From positions 1-40,665 of the forward strand of contig JAKPQA010000286.1 of the NCBI GenBank assembly GCA_029547025.1: a stretch of DNA of 40,665 nt. The letters are read 5' to 3'. Under the pieces are notes generated by a model. It worked only from the letters and a program-made list of their open reading frames with translations. It was not told the origin of the DNA and searched no databases. Each line of letters starts with the position of its first letter. Position 1 is the first letter of the stretch. Positions 27,386-40,665 of this stretch are shown here, piece after piece. The DNA comes from Armatimonadota bacterium (GTDB lineage: Bacteria > Armatimonadota > Zipacnadia > UBA1398 > JAKPQA01). The position numbers and the translations under genes were made by a program.

Positions 27386-28546
27386 TCACCCCGGGTGGCC
27401 CCATGCCCTCCCCGCGGCCGCGCGACCGAGCCGGCGCCCCGTCTCGATCATCGCGGCAATGTTCTCCTCAGGCGTCTCCCGGCCCACCTGGTCACCCGTG
27501 CCCAGGATCAGCCGTGACGGCGGCACTCCCCATCGGTCGAGGATCTCCTCGACCTGAAGAGACACCGCGTCCGGGCCGCCGCGGATGAGTGTCTCCACCG
27601 TGTGCACGTTACCATTGACAGTCACCCGGTCACGGAGCTGCTCCCGAACGACCGATAGGTCTGTCGTGTCGCCGCCGGGCGGGCGCTCAAATGGGCACAC
27701 GCAGTCGGCACCTGTGTCCGGGAGATCGGCCACGATGGCCGCGCACCGGCCGTGGAGGTGCACGTGCAGCAGCCGCCCCCCGCGGTGCGCCTCCTCAGCC
27801 ACCGCGCGGATGACGGGGGCATCCCATCGCCGCCAGAGGTCAGGGCTTAGCACCGAGAGACACGACCACGCGCAGCCGATGAACAGCGCCTCCGCCGCCG
27901 TCTGCTCGCACGCGGCCCGTGCCAGCCGGCGCATGTGGGCCAGGTAGCGCTCGTGGAGCGACTGGAGAAACGGGCCATGGTCCGCCAGGTCGAAGAGCGC
28001 CCGGGTGGGGCCGCCCTCGCGCCCGAGGGCAATGTAGTCGAAAAAGGGCACGCCCACGCCCACCTCGAGCAGGTAGTCGTCGCCCACTGCCGCCAGGGCG
28101 CGTCTGACCCCGGACCAGTCGGCCTCCTCCACGGCACCCAGGCTTGCCGCCTCGTAGGCCGGCCAGTCAGTCACAAAGTCCTTAATAGGTCGCTCAATCG
28201 CGGATGACGGCTCGGCCCGGTCGAAGAGGGTACGGCTTCGGAGCACTCCGTGCGGAGTCTCCGTGACAACGCGCGATTCGAACCGGCCGCCGCCGATGTC
28301 GACCCAGTCCTCGCGGCTCCGCACGCCCGGCGACGGGATGCTGCCCCCCGCGACAGACCAGCCCTCGGTGCCGTAGTGGCGGAAGGTCCGTTGGTGGGCC
28401 TCCCACAGCGGCACCTGCCGCTCGAACGTGATCATGTCCACCCCGAGGAGCCGCGCCGGGATGTAGTACCAGAACTCAGGGGCCACCGGCACGCCATCGA
28501 CGGGAAGGCCGCGGTAGGCGGCAACCATGCGCTCGCGGGGAGACAA
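27386..28546 (-). CDS. URO-D/MtaA-superfamily protein
   Basis: A 386-residue protein with the uroporphyrinogen decarboxylase fold as found in the MtaA/CmuA methyltransferase-like branch. It starts with the typical SPRERMVAAYRGLPVDGVPVAPEFW segment and ends with the family pattern VNGNVHTVETLIRGGPDAV, then RLILGTGDQVGRETPEENIAAMIETGR. True HemE proteins have an invariant RQAGR near the N-terminus, which is absent, so it is not a heme-pathway decarboxylase. Such paralogues are often found next to sugar catabolic or corrinoid-dependent methyltransferase genes; their reactions are mostly unknown. The start is a TTG at 28546 with GGAGG seven bases upstream. It is divergent from a second member of the family, with a shared dyad between them. 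Confidence 0.8.
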   Translation of the reverse strand: MSPRERMVAAYRGLPVDGVPVAPEFWYYIPARLLGVDMITFERQVPLWEAHQRTFRHYGTEGWSVAGGSIPSPGVRSREDWVDIGGGRFESRVVTETPHGVLRSRTLFDRAEPSSAIERPIKDFVTDWPAYEAASLGAVEEADWSGVRRALAAVGDDYLLEVGVGVPFFDYIALGREGGPTRALFDLADHGPFLQSLHERYLAHMRRLARAACEQTAAEALFIGCAWSCLSVLSPDLWRRWDAPVIRAVAEEAHRGGRLLHVHLHGRCAAIVADLPDTGADCVCPFERPPGGDTTDLSVVREQLRDRVTVNGNVHTVETLIRGGPDAVSLQVEEILDRWGVPPSRLILGTGDQVGRETPEENIAAMIETGRRLGRAAAGRAWGHPG

Positions 28547-28568: not shown

Positions 28569-28609
28569 GCGACACAGGCATCATAGACCGACGTGCCGAA
28601 CCGTGTCGC
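28569..28609. promoter_or_regulatory. Promoter and dyad between the two URO-D genes
   Basis: GCGACAC at 28569-28575 and GTGTCGC at 28603-28609 are perfect complements with 27 bases between them. On the minus strand GCGACA (28609-28604), an 18-base spacer and TATGAT (28585-28580) form a plausible promoter for the minus-strand gene, so one arm of the dyad covers its -35. No equally good -10 is visible for the plus-strand gene. A regulator binding both arms could control the pair. Confidence 0.4.
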
Positions 28610-28637
28610 GATCTACGGCGCGGGACGGTGCGATGCC

Positions 28638-29702
28638 ATGAAGCGTCTGACCATGCGCGAACGCCTCCTGGCGGTGTTACGCGGCCACGAGCTCGATGAG
28701 GTGCCCTTCGCCGTCTACGACGGGACGGAAGGCACCCGGCAAGACATCTGGGACTCAGTGGGCCGCGACTGCGTCGGGCTGTTGGGCTGGACCAGTGCCC
28801 ACACGGCGGCCGCGCCCCACTGCCACTGGGAGACCGAGGACATCCTTGTCGATGGCCGTCGGGGCCTGCGGACCGTCCTCCACACGCCGGCGGGCTCGCT
28901 CGTCGAAGAGAAGATCCTCCAGCCCGATCTCGGCGTTCTTGCGGCCTACCGCCATTTCGTGCGTGTCCCGCGGGACTACGAGGTCCTTCTCGCCTACCTC
29001 CGAGACGTGATCGTCTCGCCCAGCCCGGAGACATGCGCCGCGACGGTAGCCAGCCTGGGCGATGACGGTCTCCCTCACCTCGCCGTCGACCGCACGCCCT
29101 TCCAGCAGCTCTGGATCCAGTGGGTGTGTCTTGAGGACCTGTGCCTGCACCTCGTCGACTGCCCGGAGATCGTGCGCGATTGCATGGACGCCATGGGGGC
29201 ATTGCTTCGCCGCGAGTTCGAGGCCGCTTGCCGAGCCAGTGCGCCCTATGTGGTCATCCCCGACAACATCACCGCGCCCGCCATCGGGCCGCGCCTCTTC
29301 CGCGAGTACTGCATCCCCTACTACCGTGAGCTGGCCGCCATGCTGGGTGAACACGACATGCGGCTCTTCGTGCACATGGATGGCGACTTGCGCCCCCTGT
29401 GGGCCGACATCGCAGACTCCGGCGTCGGTGGGATCGACTCCCTGTCGCCGCCGCCCGATAATGACACATCGGTCGCCGCCGCCCTGTCCCAGTGGCCCGA
29501 CATGCGGCTGTTCGTGAACTTCCCCTCCTCGGTCCACCTCGCACCGCCCGAGCAGGTCTATGCCCAGACCGCCCAGATGCTCGCCGAGGGGAAAGCGTCC
29601 GGTCGCCTCGAGATCCAGATCTCCGAGAACCTGCCGCCCGGCCGCTGGCGTGTCAGCTACCCGGCCATTGTGGCCGCCATTCGGGATTTGGGCCAGTACT
29701 GA
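28638..29702 (+). CDS. URO-D/MtaA-superfamily protein
   Basis: A 354-residue member of the same superfamily as the divergent neighbour but only distantly similar to it. It begins KRLTMRERLLAVLRGHELDEVPF, as the family does, and shows the barrel segments YVVIPDNITAPAIGPRLFREYCIPYYRELAAMLGEHDMRLFVHMDGDLRPLWADIADSGVGGIDSLSPPPDND, where VHMDG and the GIDSL strand resemble the ligand pocket of MtaA-like proteins. The HemE signature is absent. The ATG at 28638 is the best start by family length; a GTG at 28593 would add 15 residues. It is followed by a 356-base spacer with hairpins. Function unknown; a methyltransferase or lyase role is inference. Confidence 0.78.
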   Translation: MKRLTMRERLLAVLRGHELDEVPFAVYDGTEGTRQDIWDSVGRDCVGLLGWTSAHTAAAPHCHWETEDILVDGRRGLRTVLHTPAGSLVEEKILQPDLGVLAAYRHFVRVPRDYEVLLAYLRDVIVSPSPETCAATVASLGDDGLPHLAVDRTPFQQLWIQWVCLEDLCLHLVDCPEIVRDCMDAMGALLRREFEAACRASAPYVVIPDNITAPAIGPRLFREYCIPYYRELAAMLGEHDMRLFVHMDGDLRPLWADIADSGVGGIDSLSPPPDNDTSVAAALSQWPDMRLFVNFPSSVHLAPPEQVYAQTAQMLAEGKASGRLEIQISENLPPGRWRVSYPAIVAAIRDLGQY

Positions 29703-30058: not shown

Positions 30059-31252
30059 CTACGCTACCCCGTGCGCCGCTTTGTACTCCTCGATGAGATC
30101 GGCCGCCCGGATCACACCGCCGGCCTCCCGCAGCGAGGCGCCCACCTGCGCCACGTTCGCCTGGATGCCCGGGTCCGTTACGACGTGGTGCACCGCCTCG
30201 GCCAGCCGCGCGGGCGTCGCTCGGTGAGGGCTGAGTAGTATGCCGGCTCCGAGCCGCACCACTTGGCGGGACATGAGGATCCGCTCTGCCGTGCCGGGGA
30301 CCAGCACCACGGGGACGTTGTGCCAGAACGCCTCCTGAATGCTGTTGATCCCGCCATGTGAGATCAGCACGGCCGCGCGCTGCAGCACCTCGAGCTGTGG
30401 GATGGAAGCGCGGATGACGAAGTGGGCGGGGGCGCGGAGCCGCGCCACTTGCTCCTCGGACCCCACGGCCATGACGACGCACCCATCCCATTGCGCAAAC
30501 GCCTCAACACATGACTCGTAGAAGCGCGGAAGATCGGTGTCGATCGTGCCCATGCTGATGCAGATCACCCGGCGGCTCTCCAGCTGCTCCCACGGGAAGT
30601 CATGGGCACTGCCTCGGGAGCCGAGGCACGGGCCGACGAAGGCATAGCTGCTGTCGAACCGCTCGGGTTGGGGCTGCACCAGCCGAGACGTGTAGACCAG
30701 ATTCAGCGGCTCGTGGTTGGTGAACACATCGAGAATCCCGCTCGGCGCGACACGGTGTTCGGCCCAGAGGCGCCGGCGGGCACGCAGGTAGCGCATGAGC
30801 CACCGCGTTCCACCCGGGACCGTCTTCGCCAATGACGACATGAACGGTACCGATGTGAGCAGGACGCGCAGGCTGAAGGCCAGCTGCGTCACCGAGCACA
30901 CGGCCGGGATGCCGCGGGCGTGCGCCAGGATCTTCCCCCAGACGCACACGGAGTCGTGGATGATGTAGTCGGGAGGCGACTCCCGCAGGTCCTGGCAGAG
31001 CGGACCGTAGCCCGCCGTGCACGCTTCCATGAGCCTCGCTGCACCCTCGAACACCTCGCCGGTGGGGCGGACATACGAGTCGTCGATGGGATAGGGCCGG
31101 AACTGCGCTCCCGTGGCGGTGATCCGGGGCTCGAACTCGCGCGTGCAGTAGAAACGGACACACTCCCCGCGCCGAACCAGCTCCTGTGCCAGAGCTAGCG
31201 CCGGGTTCATGTGTCCATGGCACGGTATGTTGAAGAAGGTAACCTTCGACAC
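30059..31252 (-). CDS. GT1 (MGT/UGT-type) glycosyltransferase
   Basis: A 397-residue GT-B glycosyltransferase of the macrolide-glycosyltransferase/YjiC branch, which moves a sugar from a nucleotide donor to a small or lipid acceptor. The N-terminal acceptor domain opens with KVTFFNIPCHGHMNPALALAQEL, including the HGH at 12-14 where the catalytic base lies. The C-terminal donor domain has ICISMGTIDTD, ASIPQLEVLQRAAVLISHGGINSIQEAF near 285-312 and VPGTAERILMSRQVVRLGAG. The donor motif is slightly altered: the usual DQ is replaced by ER, so donor choice may differ. I placed the start at the GTG at 31252 with GAGG eight bases upstream, because the open frame beyond has no family similarity. It has a strong promoter (TTGGCG-17-TATAAT) and is divergent from the YkoP-like gene. 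Confidence 0.85.
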   Translation of the reverse strand: MSKVTFFNIPCHGHMNPALALAQELVRRGECVRFYCTREFEPRITATGAQFRPYPIDDSYVRPTGEVFEGAARLMEACTAGYGPLCQDLRESPPDYIIHDSVCVWGKILAHARGIPAVCSVTQLAFSLRVLLTSVPFMSSLAKTVPGGTRWLMRYLRARRRLWAEHRVAPSGILDVFTNHEPLNLVYTSRLVQPQPERFDSSYAFVGPCLGSRGSAHDFPWEQLESRRVICISMGTIDTDLPRFYESCVEAFAQWDGCVVMAVGSEEQVARLRAPAHFVIRASIPQLEVLQRAAVLISHGGINSIQEAFWHNVPVVLVPGTAERILMSRQVVRLGAGILLSPHRATPARLAEAVHHVVTDPGIQANVAQVGASLREAGGVIRAADLIEEYKAAHGVA

Positions 31253-31280
31253 GGATGGCCTCGCCTCTTGGTGCCGAAGG

Positions 31281-31309
31281 GCGACACCTGTCGGCTGGGG
31301 CATTATACT
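31281..31309 (+). promoter_or_regulatory. Promoter of the YkoP-like gene
   Basis: GCGACA (31281-31286), a 17-base spacer and TATACT (31304-31309). The predicted start near 31316 leaves a leader of about 38 bases before the GTG at 31354. Its -10 overlaps that of the opposite promoter. Confidence 0.45.
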
Positions 31310-31315
31310 GCCCCA
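31296..31315. promoter_or_regulatory. Perfect 20-bp dyad covering both -10 elements
   Basis: TGGGGCA at 31296-31302 and TGCCCCA at 31309-31315 are perfect complements around TTATAC. The dyad contains the -10 of both divergent promoters, so a protein bound here, or polymerase on one side, would block the other. It looks like an operator; no regulator gene is adjacent. Confidence 0.45.
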
Positions 31316-31330
31316 CCAGCGGGCCGCCAA
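31302..31330 (-). promoter_or_regulatory. Promoter of the GT1 glycosyltransferase gene
   Basis: On the minus strand TTGGCG (31330-31325), a 17-base spacer and a perfect TATAAT (31307-31302). It is the best sigma-70-type match that I noticed in the window. The predicted leader before the GTG at 31252 is about 43 bases. Confidence 0.6.
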
Positions 31331-31353: not shown

Positions 31354-31977
31354 GTGGGATCGCTCATCGAGAAGCTGTTCGACTGGGCCTATCACGTCGA
31401 GCCCCTTGCGGAGAACTCGGACCATCTCAACTTCCGGGTCTGCTTCCAGACCTACCGGGGCCGGTCGATAGACCTACCGCCGGGCATCCGGGTCGAGCGA
31501 GGCGCCCGCGTGGTCGAGCTGCACCAGAAGAACGAGATGCTCGCACGCCTGCACGACGACCACCCCAGCCCCCGTGCTGCCGCACTGGCGTACAGCAGAC
31601 TCATGGGCGAGTCCCTCGCCGCGTTGGCACGGGCTTGGCGTGAGGACCCCAGATTCCAGGGCGTCGTGGCCGCCTACGGCGTCAACCTTTTCGCCGACGT
31701 AGCTGTCCGCGGCGGGTTCACGGCCCGCCCGATCCGCCCCGAATGGCGCAGAAAGCTGCTCAGCTGGTGGATCCGTCGCATCGTCGCATCACACCACCCC
31801 GCTGGCAGAGCACGGGTCATCAAGAATGGCGTGCCGCTGATGGCTCAGGAGGTCTGGATCTCGCGCGAGGTCTGCCAACAGCTATATGGAGAGGCAACCG
31901 AGCAGTCAGACGCCCTCGACGCAGCGCGAAAGAGTCGTCGCCTCCAGACCGCGCTCGGCCAAAACAGGGAGGACTAG
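31354..31977 (+). CDS. YkoP-like protein
   Basis: A 207-residue protein matching the pattern of YkoP-type proteins: LFDWAYHVEPL near the start, then LNFRVCFQTYRGRSIDLPPGIRVERGARVVELHQKNEMLARL (about residues 22-63), followed by an alpha-helical region with LAYSRLMGESLAALARAW. The family is uncharacterised; in Bacillus the ykoP gene lies near a glycosyltransferase gene, and related domains occur with polysaccharide deacetylases, which is the setting here too. No signal peptide is seen, and WRRKLLSWWIRRIV may be amphipathic and membrane-associated. The GTG at 31354 has GAGGGGG upstream. Its last 72 bases overlap the end of the deacetylase gene on the opposite strand. The role is inferred only from context. 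Confidence 0.7.
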   Translation: MGSLIEKLFDWAYHVEPLAENSDHLNFRVCFQTYRGRSIDLPPGIRVERGARVVELHQKNEMLARLHDDHPSPRAAALAYSRLMGESLAALARAWREDPRFQGVVAAYGVNLFADVAVRGGFTARPIRPEWRRKLLSWWIRRIVASHHPAGRARVIKNGVPLMAQEVWISREVCQQLYGEATEQSDALDAARKSRRLQTALGQNRED

Positions 31978-32613
31978 CTCCAGGCACTGCGCCACACGCT
32001 CAGGCGTGTCGTCGAACCCTCCGGCATCATGAAGGCACACGATGTCTCCTCCGCCGACCCGCCCCAGGATGTGCTCGGCCATGGCCTGCACCGAGGGCTT
32101 CACCCAGAAGCCCTCCGGGCAGATCGACCAGCGCACGGGGCGCAAACCCAGCTTCCGGTATACCCACAGCCCCGTGGCGCTGCACATGCCCCACGGTGGC
32201 CGCACGTAGAGCGGCCGTGTGCCCGAGGCCCTCTCGATCGCCTCCAGCCCGCGCCGGAGGTCAGCCTGGTGCAACCCGGGCGGTGTGAACCAGGCATGCA
32301 GGTGGTTGTGCCCGTGGAGCTGCACCTCATGCCCCCGCTCCACCGTGGCCCCCAGAGTGTCCGGGTAACGGTCCACCTGGCGTCCGAGCACAAAGAACGT
32401 CCCCTTCGCGCCATGCGCCTCGAGGATGTCGCATATCCGCTGTGTGTGGGGCGGGTTCGGGCCATCGTCGAAAGTCAGAGCGACGGCCGAGGGATGCCGT
32501 CCACGATGGACCACGCCGCGGTTGCCCCGGGTCACCACCGCATGGGTGAGAGCCGCCGAGCCAAACCAGGCGCCCGCCAGGGCCGCTGGGCCGGCCATAA
32601 TCCACGGGTTCAT
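31906..32613 (-). CDS. Membrane-anchored polysaccharide deacetylase (NodB/CE4 family)
   Basis: A 235-residue carbohydrate esterase family 4 protein that removes N- or O-acetyl groups from sugars. An N-terminal helix (about 3-26) should anchor it to the membrane with the catalytic domain outside. Motifs are intact: TFDDGPNPPHT with the Asp pair 49-50, HGHNH with metal ligands His100 and His104, RPPWG at 138-142, and LHDAG with His195 at the end. It starts at the ATG at 32613, which overlaps the MFS stop as ATGA and has GAGGAGG about seven bases upstream, so translation is probably coupled. It is the last gene of the glycolipid-type operon. Substrate is not visible from sequence; an acetylated aminosugar lipid would fit the neighbours. 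Confidence 0.86.
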   Translation of the reverse strand: MNPWIMAGPAALAGAWFGSAALTHAVVTRGNRGVVHRGRHPSAVALTFDDGPNPPHTQRICDILEAHGAKGTFFVLGRQVDRYPDTLGATVERGHEVQLHGHNHLHAWFTPPGLHQADLRRGLEAIERASGTRPLYVRPPWGMCSATGLWVYRKLGLRPVRWSICPEGFWVKPSVQAMAEHILGRVGGGDIVCLHDAGGFDDTPERVAQCLELVLPVLAERGLEATTLSRCVEGV

Positions 32614-33887
32614 CGCATCGCCTCCTCGGACTGCACCGAACAAACCGCCGCTTCTGGCTCCTCGGAACCCGGAACCGGATCGAGCGCCTCCGGATCACCG
32701 CGGAACATCGGCGCCGCGAATGAGTACACAGCCGCGATCACCAGCAGGACACCCGATGCCGCCAGGAACGGGCCACGAGGCCCCCAACGGCCCTCAATGA
32801 AGCCCGACGAAGCCGGGCCGGCCATGAAACCCAGCTGCTCGCATGCCATGAACGCCGACAGCATCAGCGCCCGTTGCTCCCGGTGCGCGTGCAGCAGCAG
32901 CAATGCGTTCCATGTCGGCAGGATCAGCGCGTAGGCGCACCCGGCCACGCCGACCAAGCCGATCAGCACGGGGAACGAGCGCGTGTAGGCGAGCCCCGCC
33001 AGCACCAGGCCCGACGCCGCGAGACTGCTCACCATCAGCCACTGCTTGCTAACCCGATCCGCCATGCGTCCCATCGGGATGATCAGGCCAGCCGCCAGTC
33101 CCCCGCCCGCGATGGCCAGGATCAGAATCTGATCCTCCCCCAGGCCCTGGTGGCCCTTCAGATACGGCGCAAGCACCGGCGCCAGCAGGCCGACCGTGAG
33201 CGTCTGGCAGAACAACCCCACCACCAGCAGCCTCTTTCGAGTGAGACGTCGAGCCGCGTCCAGGCCTACCTCGAGCAGCGGCCTCCGCGCGGCCCGCCCC
33301 TCAACCGCACCCCGCCCACCACGTGGCACCAGCGTGGCCGCAATCAGCAACGCGACGGCAAACTCCACGCCCAGGAGCCCAAACAGCAGACGCGTATCGA
33401 GCCGGCTCAGCAGCATGAGCACCAGGAAGCCGCACCCGATCGCCGCAAACCATGCCGTGAAGACCACCCCCACGGCCGTGCTCCGCCGCTCCGGATCCAC
33501 CCGGTCTGCCGTCAGCGCCAGAACGGTCGGCCCCACCGGCGACGCCGAAACCCCGTGCAGGAACACCAGCGCCCGCAGTATCCACACGCCCGTCGCGAAC
33601 GGCATGCCGGCAAGGGTGGCAAGCGAGCCGGACATGGCAAACACTAGCATGGCCCGCCGGCCCAAGCGGTCAGCCAGGGCTCCCGAAAGCACTTTCATCG
33701 ACAGATCGGCCAGCGTGTAAAACGAGATGGTGACGCCGATCTCGGCCGGCGAGAGACGCAGAACCCGCTCGCCATGCTCGCGAAGCAGTACGTACAGCAG
33801 ACCGCCGTGCGCGAACTCCGCCAGTGACATCACGGCCACGGCAGGCAGGAACTGCCGCCAGGGGATACCCCGCTCGCCCGATGCCAT
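32610..33887 (-). CDS. MFS transporter, possible glycolipid flippase
   Basis: A 425-residue major facilitator with about 12 membrane helices. Motif A (GALADRLGRRAML) lies between helices 2 and 3, and a related GRMADRVSKQW in the second half marks the internal duplication. The first helix contains acidic residues (SLAEFAHGG), unusual for drug pumps. The ATG at 33887 overlaps the stop of the upstream glycosyltransferase by one base (TGATG), and its own stop overlaps the deacetylase start. In Staphylococcus an MFS protein, LtaA, encoded next to the lipid glycosyltransferase YpfP flips its glycolipid product; this arrangement is alike, so a flippase role is a reasonable guess. Export of a sugar or drug cannot be excluded. 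Confidence 0.8.
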   Translation of the reverse strand: MASGERGIPWRQFLPAVAVMSLAEFAHGGLLYVLLREHGERVLRLSPAEIGVTISFYTLADLSMKVLSGALADRLGRRAMLVFAMSGSLATLAGMPFATGVWILRALVFLHGVSASPVGPTVLALTADRVDPERRSTAVGVVFTAWFAAIGCGFLVLMLLSRLDTRLLFGLLGVEFAVALLIAATLVPRGGRGAVEGRAARRPLLEVGLDAARRLTRKRLLVVGLFCQTLTVGLLAPVLAPYLKGHQGLGEDQILILAIAGGGLAAGLIIPMGRMADRVSKQWLMVSSLAASGLVLAGLAYTRSFPVLIGLVGVAGCAYALILPTWNALLLLHAHREQRALMLSAFMACEQLGFMAGPASSGFIEGRWGPRGPFLAASGVLLVIAAVYSFAAPMFRGDPEALDPVPGSEEPEAAVCSVQSEEAMR

Positions 33888-35020
33888 CAGACTCCGCACA
33901 ACCCAACCAGCGCCTCAGCCACGCGTCGAGCGGCCTCCGGCTGTCCCAGCGCGCGTGCGCGCTCCGACATGGCGCTCAGGCGATCCGGTGCCGACAGCAG
34001 CCCGCTCAGGTTTGCGGCCAGCTCCCGAGCCCCCCAAGACAACAGACCAGCGCCCCCCTCGGTCACGTACCGCACGTTCCACTCCTCATGCCCGGGCAGC
34101 GGCCGATGCAGCAACAGCGGCAGGCCGCGGGCCAACGCCTCGCTCACCGTGATCCCGCCCGCCTTCGTCACCATCAGGTCGGCGGCACCCATCAGCCGAT
34201 GCATCGCATCGATGTGGCCCATGGCCCGCATCCGGTCCGGGCAGCGGCTCGCCAGCCGCGTCCGGACCTCGACGGCCCGGGCCCCCGTCCCGCCGACGAA
34301 GACTACCTGAACTCCCGGCATGCGCGACAGCACCCCAAACGCCTCGCGCGCCGCCTGGGTCGCCCCGAAGGCCTCCGGCCCCACCAGAACCACCGGCCGC
34401 GACGGGTCCAGGCCGAACTCCCGCCGGGCCGAGTCGCGGTCGACGGGCTCCGCGAATGCCCGCCGGATCGGTATCCCCGTGTGTCGCACCCGCTCGGCTG
34501 GCATCCCGCGCTCGATGAAGCCCTGCCGCACGGACTCGCTGGGCACCAGCGTGAGATCCGCACCGGGGTGCATCCACTGGCTGTGCACCGCATGGTCGGT
34601 CACCACCACGGCCACCGGACACGGGACCACCCCGGCGGCGCGCAGCTCGGCCGCAGCCCCAGCCGGAGTGTTGTGCAGACACACCACCGCCCGGTAAGGC
34701 ATCGATCCGCAGAACTGCGCGAACCCGCTGCGTCCGGCCTGGTGCAGGCGCCGGTGGGCTGCACTGCCCAACGGCAGCTCGGCGGTCCGCCAGTAGAACG
34801 ACCGATAGAGACTCGGAACTCGGCGAATGCTCTGCACGAAGCTGAAAGTCACCAGCGTACGGGCCCAACGCCCCACAAACCAGCTGAAGTAGTCGATGAC
34901 CTCAACGCGCAGCCCCGGCCGCCGCTCCGTCAGTGCTTCGGCAATGGCCGCACCCGCCGAGTTGTGACCCGAGCCATACGATGCGCTCAGGAACAGGATG
35001 GCTGTGCCGTCCGCGGACAT
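33887..35020 (-). CDS. MGDG synthase/UgtP-type lipid glycosyltransferase (copy 1)
   Basis: A 377-residue GT28-type (GT-B) enzyme of the monogalactosyldiacylglycerol synthase/processive diacylglycerol glucosyltransferase group, which adds a sugar from a nucleotide donor to diacylglycerol or a glycolipid at the inner membrane face. It has the N-terminal SASYGSGHNSAGAAIAEAL loop, the VVVTDHAVHSQWMHPGADL segment, and the donor-binding KAGGITVSEALARGLPLLLHRPLPGHEEWN region near 288-318. The ATG at 35020 has GAGGGAG just upstream and overlaps the paralogous gene by 34 bases. Its stop overlaps the MFS start by one base. It is clearly related to its neighbour upstream, but the two differ widely, suggesting different acceptors or donors. 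Confidence 0.87.
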   Translation of the reverse strand: MSADGTAILFLSASYGSGHNSAGAAIAEALTERRPGLRVEVIDYFSWFVGRWARTLVTFSFVQSIRRVPSLYRSFYWRTAELPLGSAAHRRLHQAGRSGFAQFCGSMPYRAVVCLHNTPAGAAAELRAAGVVPCPVAVVVTDHAVHSQWMHPGADLTLVPSESVRQGFIERGMPAERVRHTGIPIRRAFAEPVDRDSARREFGLDPSRPVVLVGPEAFGATQAAREAFGVLSRMPGVQVVFVGGTGARAVEVRTRLASRCPDRMRAMGHIDAMHRLMGAADLMVTKAGGITVSEALARGLPLLLHRPLPGHEEWNVRYVTEGGAGLLSWGARELAANLSGLLSAPDRLSAMSERARALGQPEAARRVAEALVGLCGV

Positions 35021-36174
35021 AGCTCCCTCGCCACACCACTGACCGGCGTCCCCTCAGCGAGGGCCAGGAGCACTTGGGCCGCGTGCCGCCCGGCCAGCGG
35101 GCGCCGGATGCGCTCCGCGCACCTTCGCATCTGCTCCAGCGCCTCATCATCGCCGACCAATCGTTCCATCACACGGCCCAGCTCCCGGCCATTACGCGTT
35201 ACTAATCCCACCCCGGTTTCCACCACGTAACGCGCATTGGCCCCCTCCTGACCCGGGATCGGCCGGTGAATCACCATCGGCAGCCTCAGCGCCATGGCCT
35301 CGGTGCACGTGACCCCGCCTGCTTTGGTGATACAGAAATCAGCCAGCGCCATCAGCTCATGCATCTCCGTAACGAAACCCAGCACCCGCAGGCGGTCTTC
35401 CTGGCCGGCCACCCGGGCCGTGAACCACTCGCGCACGCTCCGGCTGTGTCCGGTCACAATCAGCGCGTGCAGCCCCCGAAGCCGCTCCAGCGCGCCCCAC
35501 ACCTCGCCGAGGCCCCCCATCATCCCGAAGGCTCCCGGCAGCACGAGCACAACCGGCGCATCGCCGGGCACGCCCCACTGGCGCCGCAGAGCCGCCCGGT
35601 CGTGGTCCTCAGCGAACGATGGCCGAATGCACAGCCCCGTGGTGATGACGCGTGCCGGATCGAGGCCCCGCGCAATCATCCCCTCGGCCACGAACTCCGC
35701 CGTCGCTAGGGTGAGGTCGTTGTACGGATGGACCCATTGATTGCTAATGTCGTAATCGCCCACCATCGTGACCACGGGGCATCCGATCTCGCCTCGCCGC
35801 CGCAGCTCGCCGCAGGCGCCAACCGCCGCCGGGTAGTTGCACAGGATCACGTCGGGCCGCTCGCGCTCGTAGTACTCGCGGAAGGCTTGCTGTCCGCCCC
35901 GGTTGATGAACCGCTGGAGCGCGCTTCTGGGCGGAATCCGGCCCGCCACCCAGTGGTACAGACCGTAGAGCCGCGGCGCACAGCACACGGCGCGAAGATA
36001 CTGGCGCCGGCCCCGTTCCGCCGCCTCGACGCCGACGAACTCGCGGACGAAGTCCAGCACCGTGACCCTGGCGTCGGGGCGCAGTTGGGTCAAGAACTGA
36101 GCAATGGCGCTGCAGATCGAGTCATGCCCCGCACCGACCGAGGCGCCGAGGAGGAGGATGTGAGGGCGCGTCAA
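34987..36174 (-). CDS. MGDG synthase/UgtP-type lipid glycosyltransferase (copy 2)
   Basis: A 395-residue paralogue of the previous gene with the same architecture: LLGASVGAGHDSICSAIAQFL at the N-terminus, VVTMVGDYDISNQWVHPYNDL, and KAGGVTCTEAMALRLPMVIHRPIPGQEGANARYV in the donor domain. The first gene of the operon, it starts with TTG at 36174 (no ATG is available) behind a TTGGTC-17-TATGAT promoter. A likely reaction is the first glycosylation of a lipid, with copy 1 extending it, but the order is inference. The protein ends in a short Cys/Ser-rich tail (CPRTAQPSCS) of no clear role. Both copies lie 34 bases into each other, so translation is probably coupled. Confidence 0.86.
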   Translation of the reverse strand: MTRPHILLLGASVGAGHDSICSAIAQFLTQLRPDARVTVLDFVREFVGVEAAERGRRQYLRAVCCAPRLYGLYHWVAGRIPPRSALQRFINRGGQQAFREYYERERPDVILCNYPAAVGACGELRRRGEIGCPVVTMVGDYDISNQWVHPYNDLTLATAEFVAEGMIARGLDPARVITTGLCIRPSFAEDHDRAALRRQWGVPGDAPVVLVLPGAFGMMGGLGEVWGALERLRGLHALIVTGHSRSVREWFTARVAGQEDRLRVLGFVTEMHELMALADFCITKAGGVTCTEAMALRLPMVIHRPIPGQEGANARYVVETGVGLVTRNGRELGRVMERLVGDDEALEQMRRCAERIRRPLAGRHAAQVLLALAEGTPVSGVARELCPRTAQPSCS

Positions 36175-36234
36175 CTCGCCGAATGTCTCCCGCTACCAGA
36201 CTCCGCGCCCAATCCGCGCGCGGCCTAACGCGGT

Positions 36235-36263
36235 ATCATAAGCTGCTCCCGCGTTCCGACCAA
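36235..36263 (-). promoter_or_regulatory. Promoter of the glycolipid-type operon
   Basis: On the minus strand TTGGTC (36263-36258), a 17-base spacer and TATGAT (36240-36235). The predicted start lies about 54 bases upstream of the first gene, consistent with a single transcript covering four overlapping genes. Confidence 0.45.
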
Positions 36264-36502
36264 GTCCGGCGGGCACACAACAGCACCGCCGCCCTCGCCG
36301 CAAGCCCCAGCCGCAGCTGTCAGTGGTCTGCTCATATGCTTATATGGCCGGTCAATGGGAAGGCCAACCCCTTCCCTGGCCAGCGTGATGCCTGAGCGGA
36401 CTGTGCTACGGTACTGCAGGTCATGGACGCAAGGTGGGGAACCAACGCAAGGGAATAGTGTGAAACACACCGCTCGTACTCCAAGCGAGGAAATGGCATG
36501 CC
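36264..36502 (+). promoter_or_regulatory. Upstream region of the cas operon
   Basis: This stretch holds an unusually AT-rich palindromic patch, CATATGCTTATATG at 36333-36346. CTGTCA (36317-36322) with an 18-base spacer to TATATG (36341-36346) is a possible promoter, giving a leader of about 150 bases before cas3. No CRISPR repeat is visible. GAGG at 36487-36490 is the likely ribosome binding site for the ATG at 36503. Confidence 0.3.
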
Positions 36503-39211
36503 ATGGCCAGTGCGATGAACGGCGGACTCGAGTGGCTCTGGGCCAAGAGCCCTGCGCCCGGCGGCCCGCCCGATCGCTACCACCCGCTTGTGTGCCACAT
36601 GCTCGACGTCGCCGCGGTCGCAGAAGCACTCTGGGACCGCTGGCTGAAGCCGCCGGTCCGTCGACGGCTGGGCCGCCTTCTCGGCGCTGACGATGGGGAG
36701 GCGCGCACGTGGCTCGCCCTGGTCGCGGGCCTGCACGACCTGGGCAAGTGCACGCCGGCGTTCCAGGTCCTATGGCCGGGCGCTCTCCCGAACTTGGCCG
36801 CGGCGGGCCTGACGGGAAGCCCGATTGAGCGCATCGGCCACGGGACGGCGAGCTGCCGGCTCATCGCCGACGAGCTGCGCGCATGCTGTCCCGGTCTTCC
36901 GGCGCGATCGTGCGCCGCCCTGGCCCTGGCGGTGGGCGGGCACCACGGGGTCTTCCCGGCCGAGGCCGAACTGCGGTCGGCTCGGCCGATGAGCTACGGC
37001 ACGGGTGCGTGGAGCGAGGCCAGGCGGTCGCTGGTACTTGGCGTGGCCGAGTTCGCCGGGGCACGGCTGGACGCGCCGCCGATGGCGGCTTGCCACTCCG
37101 ACCTGCCCGGGCTTGCACTACTCGCCGGGCTCGCGTGCGTGGCTGACTGGATCGGGTCGAATGAGGAGCACTTCCCGCACTCGCCGCCGCCGCTCGATCT
37201 GGAGGCCTACGCGCGTCTGGCGCGCGGGCGGGCGCGGGCCGCAGTAGAGGAGCTGGGCTTCGCGGGGTGGCAGCCGCCGGGGGCACCCGCAGACTTCGCG
37301 GAGCTGTTCCCCGCGATCGCCGAACCGCGAGCGCTCCAGGTCGCGGCGGGGCACCTGGCCGCCCGTGCTTCACCCCCGCGGCTCGTCGTCGTCGAGGCGC
37401 CCATGGGGGAAGGCAAGACCGAGGCCGCGGTGCTGCTCGCCGACGCCGCGAACGCACGCCTGCACCAGGCCGGCGTGTACGTCGGTCTGCCGACCATGGC
37501 CACGGCCAACGCCATGTACGGGCGTTTCGGCCAGTACCTGCGAGGCCGGTACCCCGACCACGTGAACTTCCGGCTGTTGCATGGGCAGGCCATGCTCTGC
37601 GACGGGCCGCTGGAGTACCGGCGGGAGGCCGTGCGGGGCGCCGAGGCGATGGATGCCGACTGCGCTGTCCCCGCAGATGAGTGGTTCTCTCACCGCAAGC
37701 GGGGCTTGCTGGCTCCCATGGCTGTGGGGACCGTGGATCAAGCTCTGATGGCCATCCTCCAGACCCCCCATGTGTTCGTCCGGCTGCTCGGGCTGGCGGG
37801 CAAAACCATCATCGTCGATGAAGTGCACGCGTACGACACCTACACCTCGACGCTGCTCGAACGGCTGCTCGGGTGGCTCGCGGCTCTCGACTGCTCGGTT
37901 GTGCTGCTCTCAGCCACGCTGCCCCGGGCTCGACGCCAGGCTCTGGTCGATGCGTACGGCGGCGCCACGTCGGCAGCGGCCGCGGCAGCCTATCCCCGGC
38001 TGACCCATACCGCGGACGGCGCGGCCGCCTCCGTCCACTTCCCGGCCTCGCGCACACACACCATTGGCGTGGAGTGGGTGGGCGGGGGTGCCGGGCTGGC
38101 CGGTTCGCTCGGCGCGGAACTGCGGGACGGCGGCTGCGCGGCTGTGGTGTGCAACACGGTCCACGAGGCCCAGGAGACCTACCGCGCGCTGCGCGATGCC
38201 CTGGGGCCGGATGGGGTCGAGGTGTCGCTCTTCCACGCGCGGTTCCCGTTGGGGCGGAGGCTCGAGCTCGAGGACGAGGTGCTGCGTCGGTTCGGGCCCC
38301 CTGGCCAGGCGAGCAGACCCGCCAGGGCCGTGCTCGTCGCGACCCAGGTCGTCGAGCAGAGCCTGGACCTTGACTTCGACCTGCTGGTTACCGAGCTGGC
38401 GCCTGTGGACCTGGTCCTTCAGCGCGCCGGGCGCATGCATCGCCACAGCCGCCAGGGCCGGCCCGCGCGTCACGCGTCCCCGCGCCTCTGGCTGATGTCG
38501 CCCGAGCTAGGAGCCGACGCGCTGCCCCAGTTCGGCTCCAGCCAGTGGGTCTATGGCGAGTTCCCGCTGCTCATGTCCTGGCTCGCCTTGCGGCATCGGG
38601 CCTCGATCACGCTGCCCGAGGATGTCGAGCCGCTCATCGAGTCGGTCTACGTTGAGGGCTGCCCCGGGGCCACCGGGGACTCCGGTCTTGACGCGCGCCT
38701 GGCGCGTGCATGGGCCGAGATGGAGAAGCGGCGGGAGGCCCTTGAGGACAGGGCGCGGGAGGTGTGCCTCCCTCGGCCCACCAGCACCAAGGGCCTCTCG
38801 GCGCTCACTCGGATGGAGTTGGAGGAGGACAACCCCGAGATGCACGCCGCCTTCCGGGCGTTGACGCGGTGGTCGGACGCCCCGAGTGTGGAGCTGGTCT
38901 GCCTCCACGGCACACCCGACCGGGCCTACCTCGACGCCCAATGCGCCGCAGCCATCGACCTGTCATCGGAGCCGGATGCCGGCACGCTGGACCAGCTCCT
39001 GAGGCTCTCGGTGAGCATCACAGGGCACCGGTGGCTGCAGGCGTTCGGCCCATCCTCCACACCGACAAGCTGGCACAAGCACGCGGTACTTCGGCATAGG
39101 CGAATCGTCCTCTTCGTGGACGGTTCGTGTGAGACCCCGTTTGGCCCGTTGCGGCTGGACGGCGAACTGGGGCTGGTCTTGCCCCGAGCCAAGGAGGGAG
39201 CAGACGCTTGA
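36503..39211 (+). CDS. cas3: CRISPR-associated nuclease/helicase Cas3 (type I-E)
   Basis: A 902-residue Cas3, which is recruited by Cascade and degrades target DNA with an HD nuclease and a 3'-5' helicase. The N-terminal HD domain has YHPLVCHMLDVA, the HD pair His78-Asp79 in GLHDLGKC, GHGTAS with His113 and GGHHGVFP with His147-His148. The helicase has Walker A MGEGKT with Lys305, the DEVH box at 439-442 (IIVDEVHAYDTYT), SATLPRARR, QVVEQSLDLDFDLL and the QRAGRMHRH arginine finger motif. A C-terminal Cas3 domain follows. All catalytic residues look intact, and length is normal for type I-E. The ATG at 36503 has GAGG 13 bases upstream; ATG at 36515 is an alternative. Its stop overlaps the start of cas8e by four bases. 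Confidence 0.92.
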   Translation: MASAMNGGLEWLWAKSPAPGGPPDRYHPLVCHMLDVAAVAEALWDRWLKPPVRRRLGRLLGADDGEARTWLALVAGLHDLGKCTPAFQVLWPGALPNLAAAGLTGSPIERIGHGTASCRLIADELRACCPGLPARSCAALALAVGGHHGVFPAEAELRSARPMSYGTGAWSEARRSLVLGVAEFAGARLDAPPMAACHSDLPGLALLAGLACVADWIGSNEEHFPHSPPPLDLEAYARLARGRARAAVEELGFAGWQPPGAPADFAELFPAIAEPRALQVAAGHLAARASPPRLVVVEAPMGEGKTEAAVLLADAANARLHQAGVYVGLPTMATANAMYGRFGQYLRGRYPDHVNFRLLHGQAMLCDGPLEYRREAVRGAEAMDADCAVPADEWFSHRKRGLLAPMAVGTVDQALMAILQTPHVFVRLLGLAGKTIIVDEVHAYDTYTSTLLERLLGWLAALDCSVVLLSATLPRARRQALVDAYGGATSAAAAAAYPRLTHTADGAAASVHFPASRTHTIGVEWVGGGAGLAGSLGAELRDGGCAAVVCNTVHEAQETYRALRDALGPDGVEVSLFHARFPLGRRLELEDEVLRRFGPPGQASRPARAVLVATQVVEQSLDLDFDLLVTELAPVDLVLQRAGRMHRHSRQGRPARHASPRLWLMSPELGADALPQFGSSQWVYGEFPLLMSWLALRHRASITLPEDVEPLIESVYVEGCPGATGDSGLDARLARAWAEMEKRREALEDRAREVCLPRPTSTKGLSALTRMELEEDNPEMHAAFRALTRWSDAPSVELVCLHGTPDRAYLDAQCAAAIDLSSEPDAGTLDQLLRLSVSITGHRWLQAFGPSSTPTSWHKHAVLRHRRIVLFVDGSCETPFGPLRLDGELGLVLPRAKEGADA

Positions 39212-40665
39212 GCTTCTCGTTCAACCTGATCGACGAGCCGTGGATCCCCTGCCTGATGGCGGACGGCTCGTACCGGGAGTTCGGGATCCGCGAGACACTG
39301 GCGAGGGCGCCGGACATCCGTGAGGTGGTGGACCCCTCGCCGTTGGTCACGGTGTCGGTGCACCGGCTGCTGCTGGCTATCCTGCACCGGAACTTCGGGC
39401 CGAGGGACGAGGACGAGTGGAAGGCGCTGTGGGACGCCGGGGCGTTCGACATGGGCGTGCTCGACGCGTACCTCGGCAAGTGGCGGCACTGCTTCGACCT
39501 TTTCGACCCCGAGCGCCCCTTCTACCAGGTGGCCGGGCTGGCCATCACACAGCCCAAGCCACCCGCCGACATCCGCATCGAGTGCGCGACTGGGAACAAC
39601 GCTACGCTGTTCGACCACAGCACGGACGACCAGCCACAGGAGCTCCTGCCGCCAGAGGCCGCACGATGTCTCCTGGTGGAGCAGAGCTTCGGGCGTTCAG
39701 GCACGATGGGTTCAGAGCGCCGAGGGCCCGCCACTGCGGACGCTGGGCCCCTGCGGTCCTGCGCCCTGGTAGTGCCCACGGGTCCCAGCCTGTGGGCATC
39801 GCTGCTGCTTGGCATGGTGCACTATGACCCAGAGGACGACGCGCCGATCCGCGGCACCAGCCACGATGCGCCTGCCTGGGAGCAGGAGGCCGCCGCGCGG
39901 GCGGGGACCCGGCCATGCCGTGGCTACCTGGACTACCTGACCTGGAACTCGCGTAGGATCCGGCTCGAGGTCCGTGCCGGGCCCGATGGCCAAATGCGCG
40001 TCCACCGTGTCCACGTGACCCCCGGCTGCGAGTTCGGCAAGGGTGTCCTCGGGGGGACGCTGCGCGACCCCATGTCAGCCTACCGGCGGAACCAGAAGGC
40101 CAAACCAGGCCAAGCCCCGTGGAGCGCTGTCTGTGTCACCGAGACGCGAGCTCTCTGGCGGGACTCCGGCGCACTGCTCCAATCGTTGCCCGGGCAGGGG
40201 GAACGTCCGGCGCTCATCGACTGGTTGGCCCGGCTCGTCGCGGCCGGGTTCGTCGACTCCGGGACGACGTACCCGATCGCCGTGTACGGCCTCAGGCACA
40301 ATCCGACGAACACTGCCCAGGTGCTCTTGTGGCGTCAGGAGAGACTTCCGCTCCCATTGGCCTATCTGTCGGATCACAACCTTGTCGAGCGCCTGACTGC
40401 GGCCCTGGCCTTGGCGGAGCACGTGGGAACAGCCACCCGGCGAGCGGCGGCGAGCCTTGCGCACAGCGTGTTGTCGCCCGACGTGGGCCGGAACGCCGAC
40501 AGCGACGCCATCACGCGCTGGTGCAAGGCCTTCCCAGCCGAGCGGCTCTACTGGTCGCGCCTCGAGGTGCCCTTCCACCGCCTACTGACACGCCTCCCCG
40601 AGGCCGGTGGCTCCGCCCTGGTGGGGTGGCGGGAGCTGATCGAGCGGGTGGCCGTGGACTCGTTC
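39208..40665 (+). CDS. cas8e: Cascade large subunit Cas8e/Cse1 (partial)
   Basis: 486 codons to the window edge with no stop, so the C-terminus is missing (complete proteins are about 500-560 residues). This is the Cascade large subunit that recognises the PAM and recruits Cas3. The conserved start FNLIDEPWIPC (about residues 5-15), the PLVTVSVHRLLLAIL segment, and GYLDYLTWNSRRIRLEV (about 240-256) followed by GGTLRDPMSAYRRN are typical of CasA/Cse1. It begins with TTG at 39208 inside the cas3 stop (TTGA) and has AAGGAGG at ten bases; the first internal ATG (39256) would remove the conserved N-terminus. The rest of the operon (cse2, cas7, cas5, cas6, cas1, cas2) and any array should lie to the right. 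Confidence 0.88.
   Translation, partial: MSFSFNLIDEPWIPCLMADGSYREFGIRETLARAPDIREVVDPSPLVTVSVHRLLLAILHRNFGPRDEDEWKALWDAGAFDMGVLDAYLGKWRHCFDLFDPERPFYQVAGLAITQPKPPADIRIECATGNNATLFDHSTDDQPQELLPPEAARCLLVEQSFGRSGTMGSERRGPATADAGPLRSCALVVPTGPSLWASLLLGMVHYDPEDDAPIRGTSHDAPAWEQEAAARAGTRPCRGYLDYLTWNSRRIRLEVRAGPDGQMRVHRVHVTPGCEFGKGVLGGTLRDPMSAYRRNQKAKPGQAPWSAVCVTETRALWRDSGALLQSLPGQGERPALIDWLARLVAAGFVDSGTTYPIAVYGLRHNPTNTAQVLLWRQERLPLPLAYLSDHNLVERLTAALALAEHVGTATRRAAASLAHSVLSPDVGRNADSDAITRWCKAFPAERLYWSRLEVPFHRLLTRLPEAGGSALVGWRELIERVAVDSF

Follow-up and report, generated by a model that had tools for sequence, protein, structure and literature searches.

A glycosyltransferase-deacetylase-YkoP-flippase cassette from Armatimonadota as a candidate pathway for N-acylglucosaminyl membrane glycolipids

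The window analyzed here is a stretch of 40,665 nucleotides (contig JAKPQA010000286.1) from a 6.3-Mb, 369-contig Armatimonadota assembly whose genome is 96% complete. It carries a five-gene cassette encoding two MGDG/UgtP-type glycosyltransferases (GT1 and GT2), a major facilitator superfamily (MFS) transporter, a CE4 N-deacetylase and a YkoP-domain protein, and this system probably makes a hexosamine membrane glycolipid. We tentatively propose, at slightly less than an even chance, that YkoP is a family of GNAT-like long-chain N-acyltransferases that would act with CE4 to swap an acetyl for a fatty acyl group, and that the cassette is how Alicyclobacillus and related thermophiles or acidophiles make their N-acylglucosaminyl glycolipids. 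The first-pass annotation of this DNA had described four of the genes as a make-flip-deacetylate system and had overlooked the fifth, the plus-strand YkoP-domain gene at 31354-31977.

RESULTS

The gene set recurs across phyla

We searched 85k species genomes with a GT alignment (A1) for which GT2 was the query, which gave 213 confirmed relatives, and kept the best 80. The neighbors of these 80 loci were found by iterated profile searches of their flanks. An MFS gene was present in 55 loci, CE4 in 65 and YkoP in 62, fractions that are not population estimates because the loci are those of the closest relatives and several lie on truncated contigs. CE4 and YkoP occurred together in 60 loci: as a fusion in 45, as separate genes on the same strand in 9, and convergently, as in the window, in 6, all of Armatimonadota/ANGP1-type (L074, L080, L081, L082, L085 and L086). 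Relatives came from Armatimonadota, 'ANGP1', Acetothermia, Alicyclobacillus, Sulfobacillus, Desulfosporosinus and other Bacillota.

The association also held in two surveys that involved less selection. Across 59 Alicyclobacillales genomes, 59 of 69 YkoP domains had an MGDG-type GT no more than 6 kb away, in each case on the strand that also carries YkoP. A cassette-grade MFS protein (369 to 413 bits, the next best scoring 226) was found in 5 of 291 Armatimonadota genomes; YkoP was detected in 6 of 201 sampled, five of which were the genomes with the cassette-grade MFS, and the sixth had its YkoP gene on a cut contig. The set recurs in many thermophilic and acidophilic bacteria, and because it recurs in other phyla its arrangement is not a matter of chance. 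The conserved co-occurrence of families that the first-pass annotation had set as a test is present across phyla, in the Alicyclobacillales and Armatimonadota surveys as well.

The fifth protein has a predicted GNAT-like fold

AlphaFold2 models of YkoP from two lineages had mean pLDDT values of 92 (window) and 90. In Foldseek searches with both models, all 50 matches listed per search read as GNAT-fold acyltransferases, including FeeM, LasI, TofI and a teicoplanin acyltransferase bound to decanoyl-CoA. FeeM is a long-chain N-acyl amino acid synthase, and LasI and TofI are acyl-homoserine lactone synthases. A search of PDB sequences with the YkoP profile gave no match and no solved relative. 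YkoP has a conserved histidine in an ELHxxN motif. From these models we infer that YkoP may re-acylate the amine freed by CE4, which would give N-acyl-glucosamine glycolipids. The fusion of a deacetylase to an acyltransferase-like domain likewise suggests that the acetyl group is replaced by another acyl group.

We found no link between YkoP and lipids in the literature searched, where YkoP is mentioned as a protein of unknown function. A 2007 paper, listed as a reference in PMC11500525, reportedly implicates YkoN in a new Bacillus subtilis phospholipid.

The YkoP family was also detected in a Thermus composti control genome, and a search of a plasmid collection for Thermus YkoP loci gave Thermomicrobium and Paenibacillus instead. 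On the Thermomicrobium roseum megaplasmid (L165, 4786-7528), a DUF2334 deacetylase gene, two GT2-family genes and ykoP stand in tandem; on these predicted functions, this is the same logic built around YkoP from unrelated enzyme families. Some Alicyclobacillus genomes (L158, L161 and L163) have extra, stand-alone YkoP copies away from CE4, adjoining class II aldolase/adducin, alpha/beta hydrolase, acyltransferase-like and lipid-kinase-like genes. These copies are a second context for YkoP.

CE4 has intact deacetylase motifs and may act in the cytosol

The CE4 motifs TFDDGP, HxxxH, RPPWG and HD are intact and invariant in alignment A4, and the protein has the D-H-H metal ligands and catalytic residues of the NodB homology domain. 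It had been called an anchored deacetylase; the anchor in question is a single N-terminal segment of weak hydrophobicity (mean hydropathy of 1.28). Positive charges follow this segment in the window protein and in 8 of 10 Armatimonadota/ANGP1-type proteins, favoring a cytosolic catalytic domain. Over all 66 proteins the bias was of the cytosolic type in 30 versus 25, with 11 ties, and we dropped it as a means of deciding the sidedness of CE4. Stand-alone YkoP proteins have no evident signal peptide or transmembrane helix. This lack of export signals, together with the CE4-YkoP fusions, points to the cytosolic side, which agrees somewhat better with the data; we take an order in which the lipid is made, deacetylated, re-acylated and then flipped to be the likelier one, and these observations do not support the earlier proposal of deacetylation outside after flipping.

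The transporter groups with the lipid flippase LtaA

The profile of the MFS family (A3) had as its best PDB match LtaA (6s7v; 224 bits, E = 2.4e-65), followed by NorA at 89 bits. As judged by these profile scores, the family groups with the lipid flippase LtaA and not with drug exporters; grouping with drug or sugar exporters had been set as the result that would overturn the earlier proposal, which therefore withstands this check. Among MFS models, the NCBIfam LtaA model was the best for the window protein, yet it scored 66 bits against a cut-off of 450. Residues E32, R35, D68, W127 and W150 are the headgroup and proton residues in the hydrophilic pocket of LtaA (PMC8866510). Across 28 family members, E32, R or H at position 35, D or E at position 68, and W150 were each found in 28, and W127 in 27. 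The window transporter keeps E32, D68 and W150, while histidine replaces R35 and glycine replaces W127.

The two glycosyltransferases arose by duplication

Both GTs have the MGDG_synth and GT28 C-terminal domains and the KAGG and PGQE motifs of MGDG/UgtP-type (GT28) enzymes; GT1 preserves GxGH, KAGG and PGQExxN. GT1 matched the NCBIfam diglucosyl-diacylglycerol synthase model PRK13609 at 217 bits, under its cut-off, and the best PDB match of the GTs was a processive diacylglycerol glucosyltransferase (9wde). GT1 and GT2 are 38% identical over 367 amino acids (BLASTP), and no second locus for an MGDG-type GT was found elsewhere in the genome of the window organism. In a tree of 46 GTs the two are sisters (support of 96/96) and are therefore the products of a tandem duplication within this lineage. 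The branch of GT2 is the shorter one, and GT2 resembles the lone GT of cassettes from other phyla more closely than GT1 does. Acetothermia have a tandem pair of their own, and the second GT of Alicyclobacillus is a distant paralogue, so that a second sugar seems, from the tree, to have been gained several times independently. The second transferase, earlier taken as a defining part of the system, is thus a tandem copy of the first, and single-GT versions are common. Because single-GT cassettes exist, the shared GT should be the one that handles the N-acetylhexosamine, and we propose that GT2 is the N-acetylhexosaminyltransferase.

A form of the cassette and lipids of the predicted class occur together in Alicyclobacillus

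The structures described in 1976 by Langworthy and colleagues are reportedly N-acylglucosaminyl-diacylglycerol and a glucosyl derivative. The type strain of Alicyclobacillus acidocaldarius, 104-IA (G297), encodes GT-CE4-YkoP-GT from a single strand (L155, 10236-6582). Langworthy 1976 describes 'novel glucosamidyl glycolipids' from this species (PMID 7302), and in the glycolipids of Thermus thermophilus the nitrogen of the glucosamine bears a long fatty acid (PMC3398001). These lipids belong to the product class predicted here; they differ from the window system in being known as chemical structures, and none of the literature searched assigns biosynthetic genes to them.

In four Alicyclobacillales loci (L155, L156, L160 and L164), GT-CE4-YkoP-GT is closely preceded by phosphate transporter genes of the pstC/pstA type. 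NCBIfam models confirmed these genes in L156 and L160, and a pstC-type gene is just upstream in the sister genome G298 (L156). Their position suggests phosphate-linked regulation of the lipid. A gene for a non-hydrolysing UDP-N-acetylglucosamine (UDP-GlcNAc) 2-epimerase (wecB, 521 bits) is divergent to the cassette in L096 (3795-4943) and in Alicyclobacillus equivalents; because of it, the sugar could be N-acetylmannosamine rather than GlcNAc.

Layout of the window locus and its neighbors

The coordinates of the cassette are given in Table 1. The four minus-strand genes lie where they had been placed, overlapping by 34, 1 and 4 bases, and their family assignments hold, as the Pfam scores of both GTs, the MFS transporter and CE4 all exceed the curated cut-offs. 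The promoter that had been placed in front of them is not established, because the sequence pair concerned is weak and was missing from the output of a consensus promoter scan.

Table 1. Features of the glycolipid cassette (window positions 31354-36367)
Feature	Position	Strand	Remarks
YkoP-domain protein, predicted GNAT-like N-acyltransferase	31354..31977	+	GTG start (31354) preceded by a ribosome-binding-like GAGGGGG; Pfam YkoP 95 bits
CE4/YkoP tail-to-tail overlap of 3' ends, 72 bases	31906..31977		Convergent genes
CE4 (NodB-type) N-deacetylase	31906..32613	-	ATG start in ATGA, GAGGAGG ahead; Pfam Polysacc_deac_1 110 bits
MFS transporter, LtaA-like lipid flippase group	32610..33887	-	ATG start in TGATG; Pfam MFS_1 154 bits
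GT2, MGDG/UgtP-type glycosyltransferase	33887..35020	-	ATG start; Pfam MGDG_synth 61 bits
GT1, MGDG/UgtP-type glycosyltransferase	34987..36174	-	TTG start; Pfam MGDG_synth 66 bits
Weak promoter-like TTGGCC-17-TATAAG ahead of GT1	36339..36367	-	Read from sequence

Divergent from GT1, cas3 (HD and helicase) and then cse1/casA, which runs off the window, form part of a type I-E CRISPR-Cas locus (36503-40665, plus strand) that shows no sign of a link to the glycolipid genes. On the other side, a macrolide-glycosyltransferase-like gene (MGT subfamily, 325 bits, over the cut-off; 30059-31330, minus strand) is divergent from ykoP. We rejected it as a sixth member, since it has no homologue near related cassettes. 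Farther out, two divergent methyltransferase-like genes of the URO-D/MtaA type, whose family scores are weak (27386-28546, minus strand, and 28593-29702, plus strand), perhaps encode corrinoid methyltransferases.

DISCUSSION

We propose that the cassette performs an acyl swap on a membrane glycolipid. GT2 most likely would put an N-acetylhexosamine, probably GlcNAc from UDP-GlcNAc, on a glycerolipid acceptor at the cytosolic face, and GT1, its tandem copy, would add the other sugar. CE4, held at the membrane through its N-terminal segment, would remove the acetyl group, and the GNAT-like YkoP would load a long-chain acyl group onto the amine thus exposed, much as NodA follows NodB in the synthesis of Nod factors. 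The LtaA-like MFS protein would then flip the glycolipid to the outer leaflet. We infer the sugar, the acceptor, the acyl chain, the order of steps, their sidedness and the activity of YkoP, and consider the chances of the full mechanism to be about even.

Operons that combine a transferase, a deacetylase and a flippase for hexosamine lipids have been characterized, namely HexSDF in 2023 and GpgSDF in 2025 (PMC10128005, PMC12713373), so the concept is not new. The first-pass annotation had not recognized its gene set as characterized; the same logic has been shown in these two systems, from Clostridioides difficile and Pseudomonas aeruginosa, with other flippase families. Its idea of an N-acetylhexosamine lipid that is deacetylated agrees with both precedents. 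HexSDF, which acts with UgtA/UgtB to make aminohexosyl-hexosyl-diradylglycerol (HNHDRG), shares with the window an MGDG-type GT, a polysaccharide deacetylase and a flippase serving a hexosamine glycolipid (PMC10128005, PMC11898633). In the window, PF06925 is over its cut-off in both GTs and PF01522 has intact motifs, and HexSDF, like the window pair, relies on a separate GT for the first sugar. The two differ in that HexF is MprF-like, whereas the window flippase is an MFS protein of the LtaA group, and in that HexSDF has HexRK regulation, no described YkoP partner and a free-amine end product. GpgSDF, which makes glucosaminyl-phosphatidylglycerol (GlcN-PG), also has its three functions in one operon, with a deacetylase proposed to be cytosolic, but it uses a GT4 transferase, a COG3233-type deacetylase, a YbhN-type flippase and a phospholipid acceptor (PMC12713373). 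YpfP-LtaA of Staphylococcus aureus likewise places a UgtP/MGDG-type GT beside an LtaA-group MFS protein, whose headgroup residues are largely kept in the family described here, but it makes a neutral diglucosyl-diacylglycerol as the anchor of lipoteichoic acid and has neither deacetylase nor YkoP. The rhizobial NodC-NodB-NodA enzymes catalyze glycosyl transfer, CE4 deacetylation and long-chain N-acylation of the freed amine. By analogy, this is the order of reactions that GT, CE4 and YkoP might follow, although the Nod system has a soluble chitooligosaccharide backbone, a different GT and ABC export. What sets the window system apart is its LtaA-group MFS flippase, its tandem pair of GTs and its conserved partner YkoP.

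Several observations weigh against the acyl swap. The Foldseek matches of YkoP are individually weak (best E values of 0.14 and 0.01, none below 0.001, and TM-scores of about 0.3 to 0.45), and because no single match is significant the GNAT-like assignment rests on their consistency. A pyrophosphate-binding motif of the usual GNAT kind was not shown for YkoP. The family is also detected in B. subtilis, from which we know of no N-acylglucosamine lipid. In the window, ykoP is convergent and not co-transcribed with the other cassette genes, and the MFS protein carries a glycine in place of W127. The A. acidocaldarius locus is without an LtaA-like MFS gene, the best score elsewhere in that genome being only 111 bits, and the flippase is therefore not universal.

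The product might instead be a hexosaminyl glycolipid that keeps its free amine and is zwitterionic or cationic, like HNHDRG or GlcN-PG; it would be formed by transfer of N-acetylhexosamine to a glycolipid or phosphatidylglycerol, deacetylation by CE4 and flipping by the MFS protein, with YkoP as a helper or regulator. HexSDF yields such a lipid with an MGDG-type GT, a polysaccharide deacetylase and a flippase (PMC10128005), GpgSDF makes GlcN-PG in both P. aeruginosa and Escherichia coli (PMC12713373), and 13 of the 80 GT loci, several on truncated contigs, have the MFS gene and no detected YkoP. This reading has no need for an acyltransferase-like protein, yet YkoP looks like one and forms a single protein with CE4 at 45 of the 80 loci, and for the cassette-bearing Sulfobacillus harzensis (L121) a glycolipid and no aminolipid are reported (PMC8489842). 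We consider it unlikely: with a GNAT-like protein tied to CE4, the pathway may go beyond the free amine.

Less probable still is that the lipid is made, flipped and only then deacetylated, with CE4 and any partner working at the outer leaflet once the MFS protein has moved the lipid there. CE4 proteins often act extracellularly, this one has an N-terminal hydrophobic segment, and such a model was put forward for HexD without localization data, protein localization having been determined in neither the HexSDF nor the GpgSDF paper (PMC10128005, PMC12713373). The absence of evident export signals from stand-alone YkoP, and its frequent place as the C-terminal half of a CE4 protein, argue against it, as do the positive charges that follow the anchor in the window protein and the majority of its Armatimonadota/ANGP1-type homologues, if not over the full set, and the cytosolic location proposed for GpgD (PMC12713373). 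We regard as highly improbable that GT, CE4 and YkoP build an N-acylglucosaminyl bacteriohopanetetrol on a hopanoid acceptor. This compound has been reported from A. acidocaldarius (PMC8537080), and hopene cyclase is found in G297, G298, G021 and G035, but none over the cut-off was detected in the window genome or in the cassette genomes G292, G293 and G295, and the GTs are of the diacylglycerol type.

The acyl-swap pathway offers candidate genes for a class of lipids known for half a century, to which, as far as we found, no biosynthesis genes have been assigned. For YkoP, an uncharacterized family that is present in B. subtilis too, it puts forward a function, and it would tie LtaA-type MFS flippases to hexosamine lipids beyond staphylococci. 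It also predicts a membrane chemistry for Armatimonadota, a phylum seen mainly through metagenomes: if the proposal is true, N-acylglucosaminyl lipids would be expected in uncultured members of this phylum.

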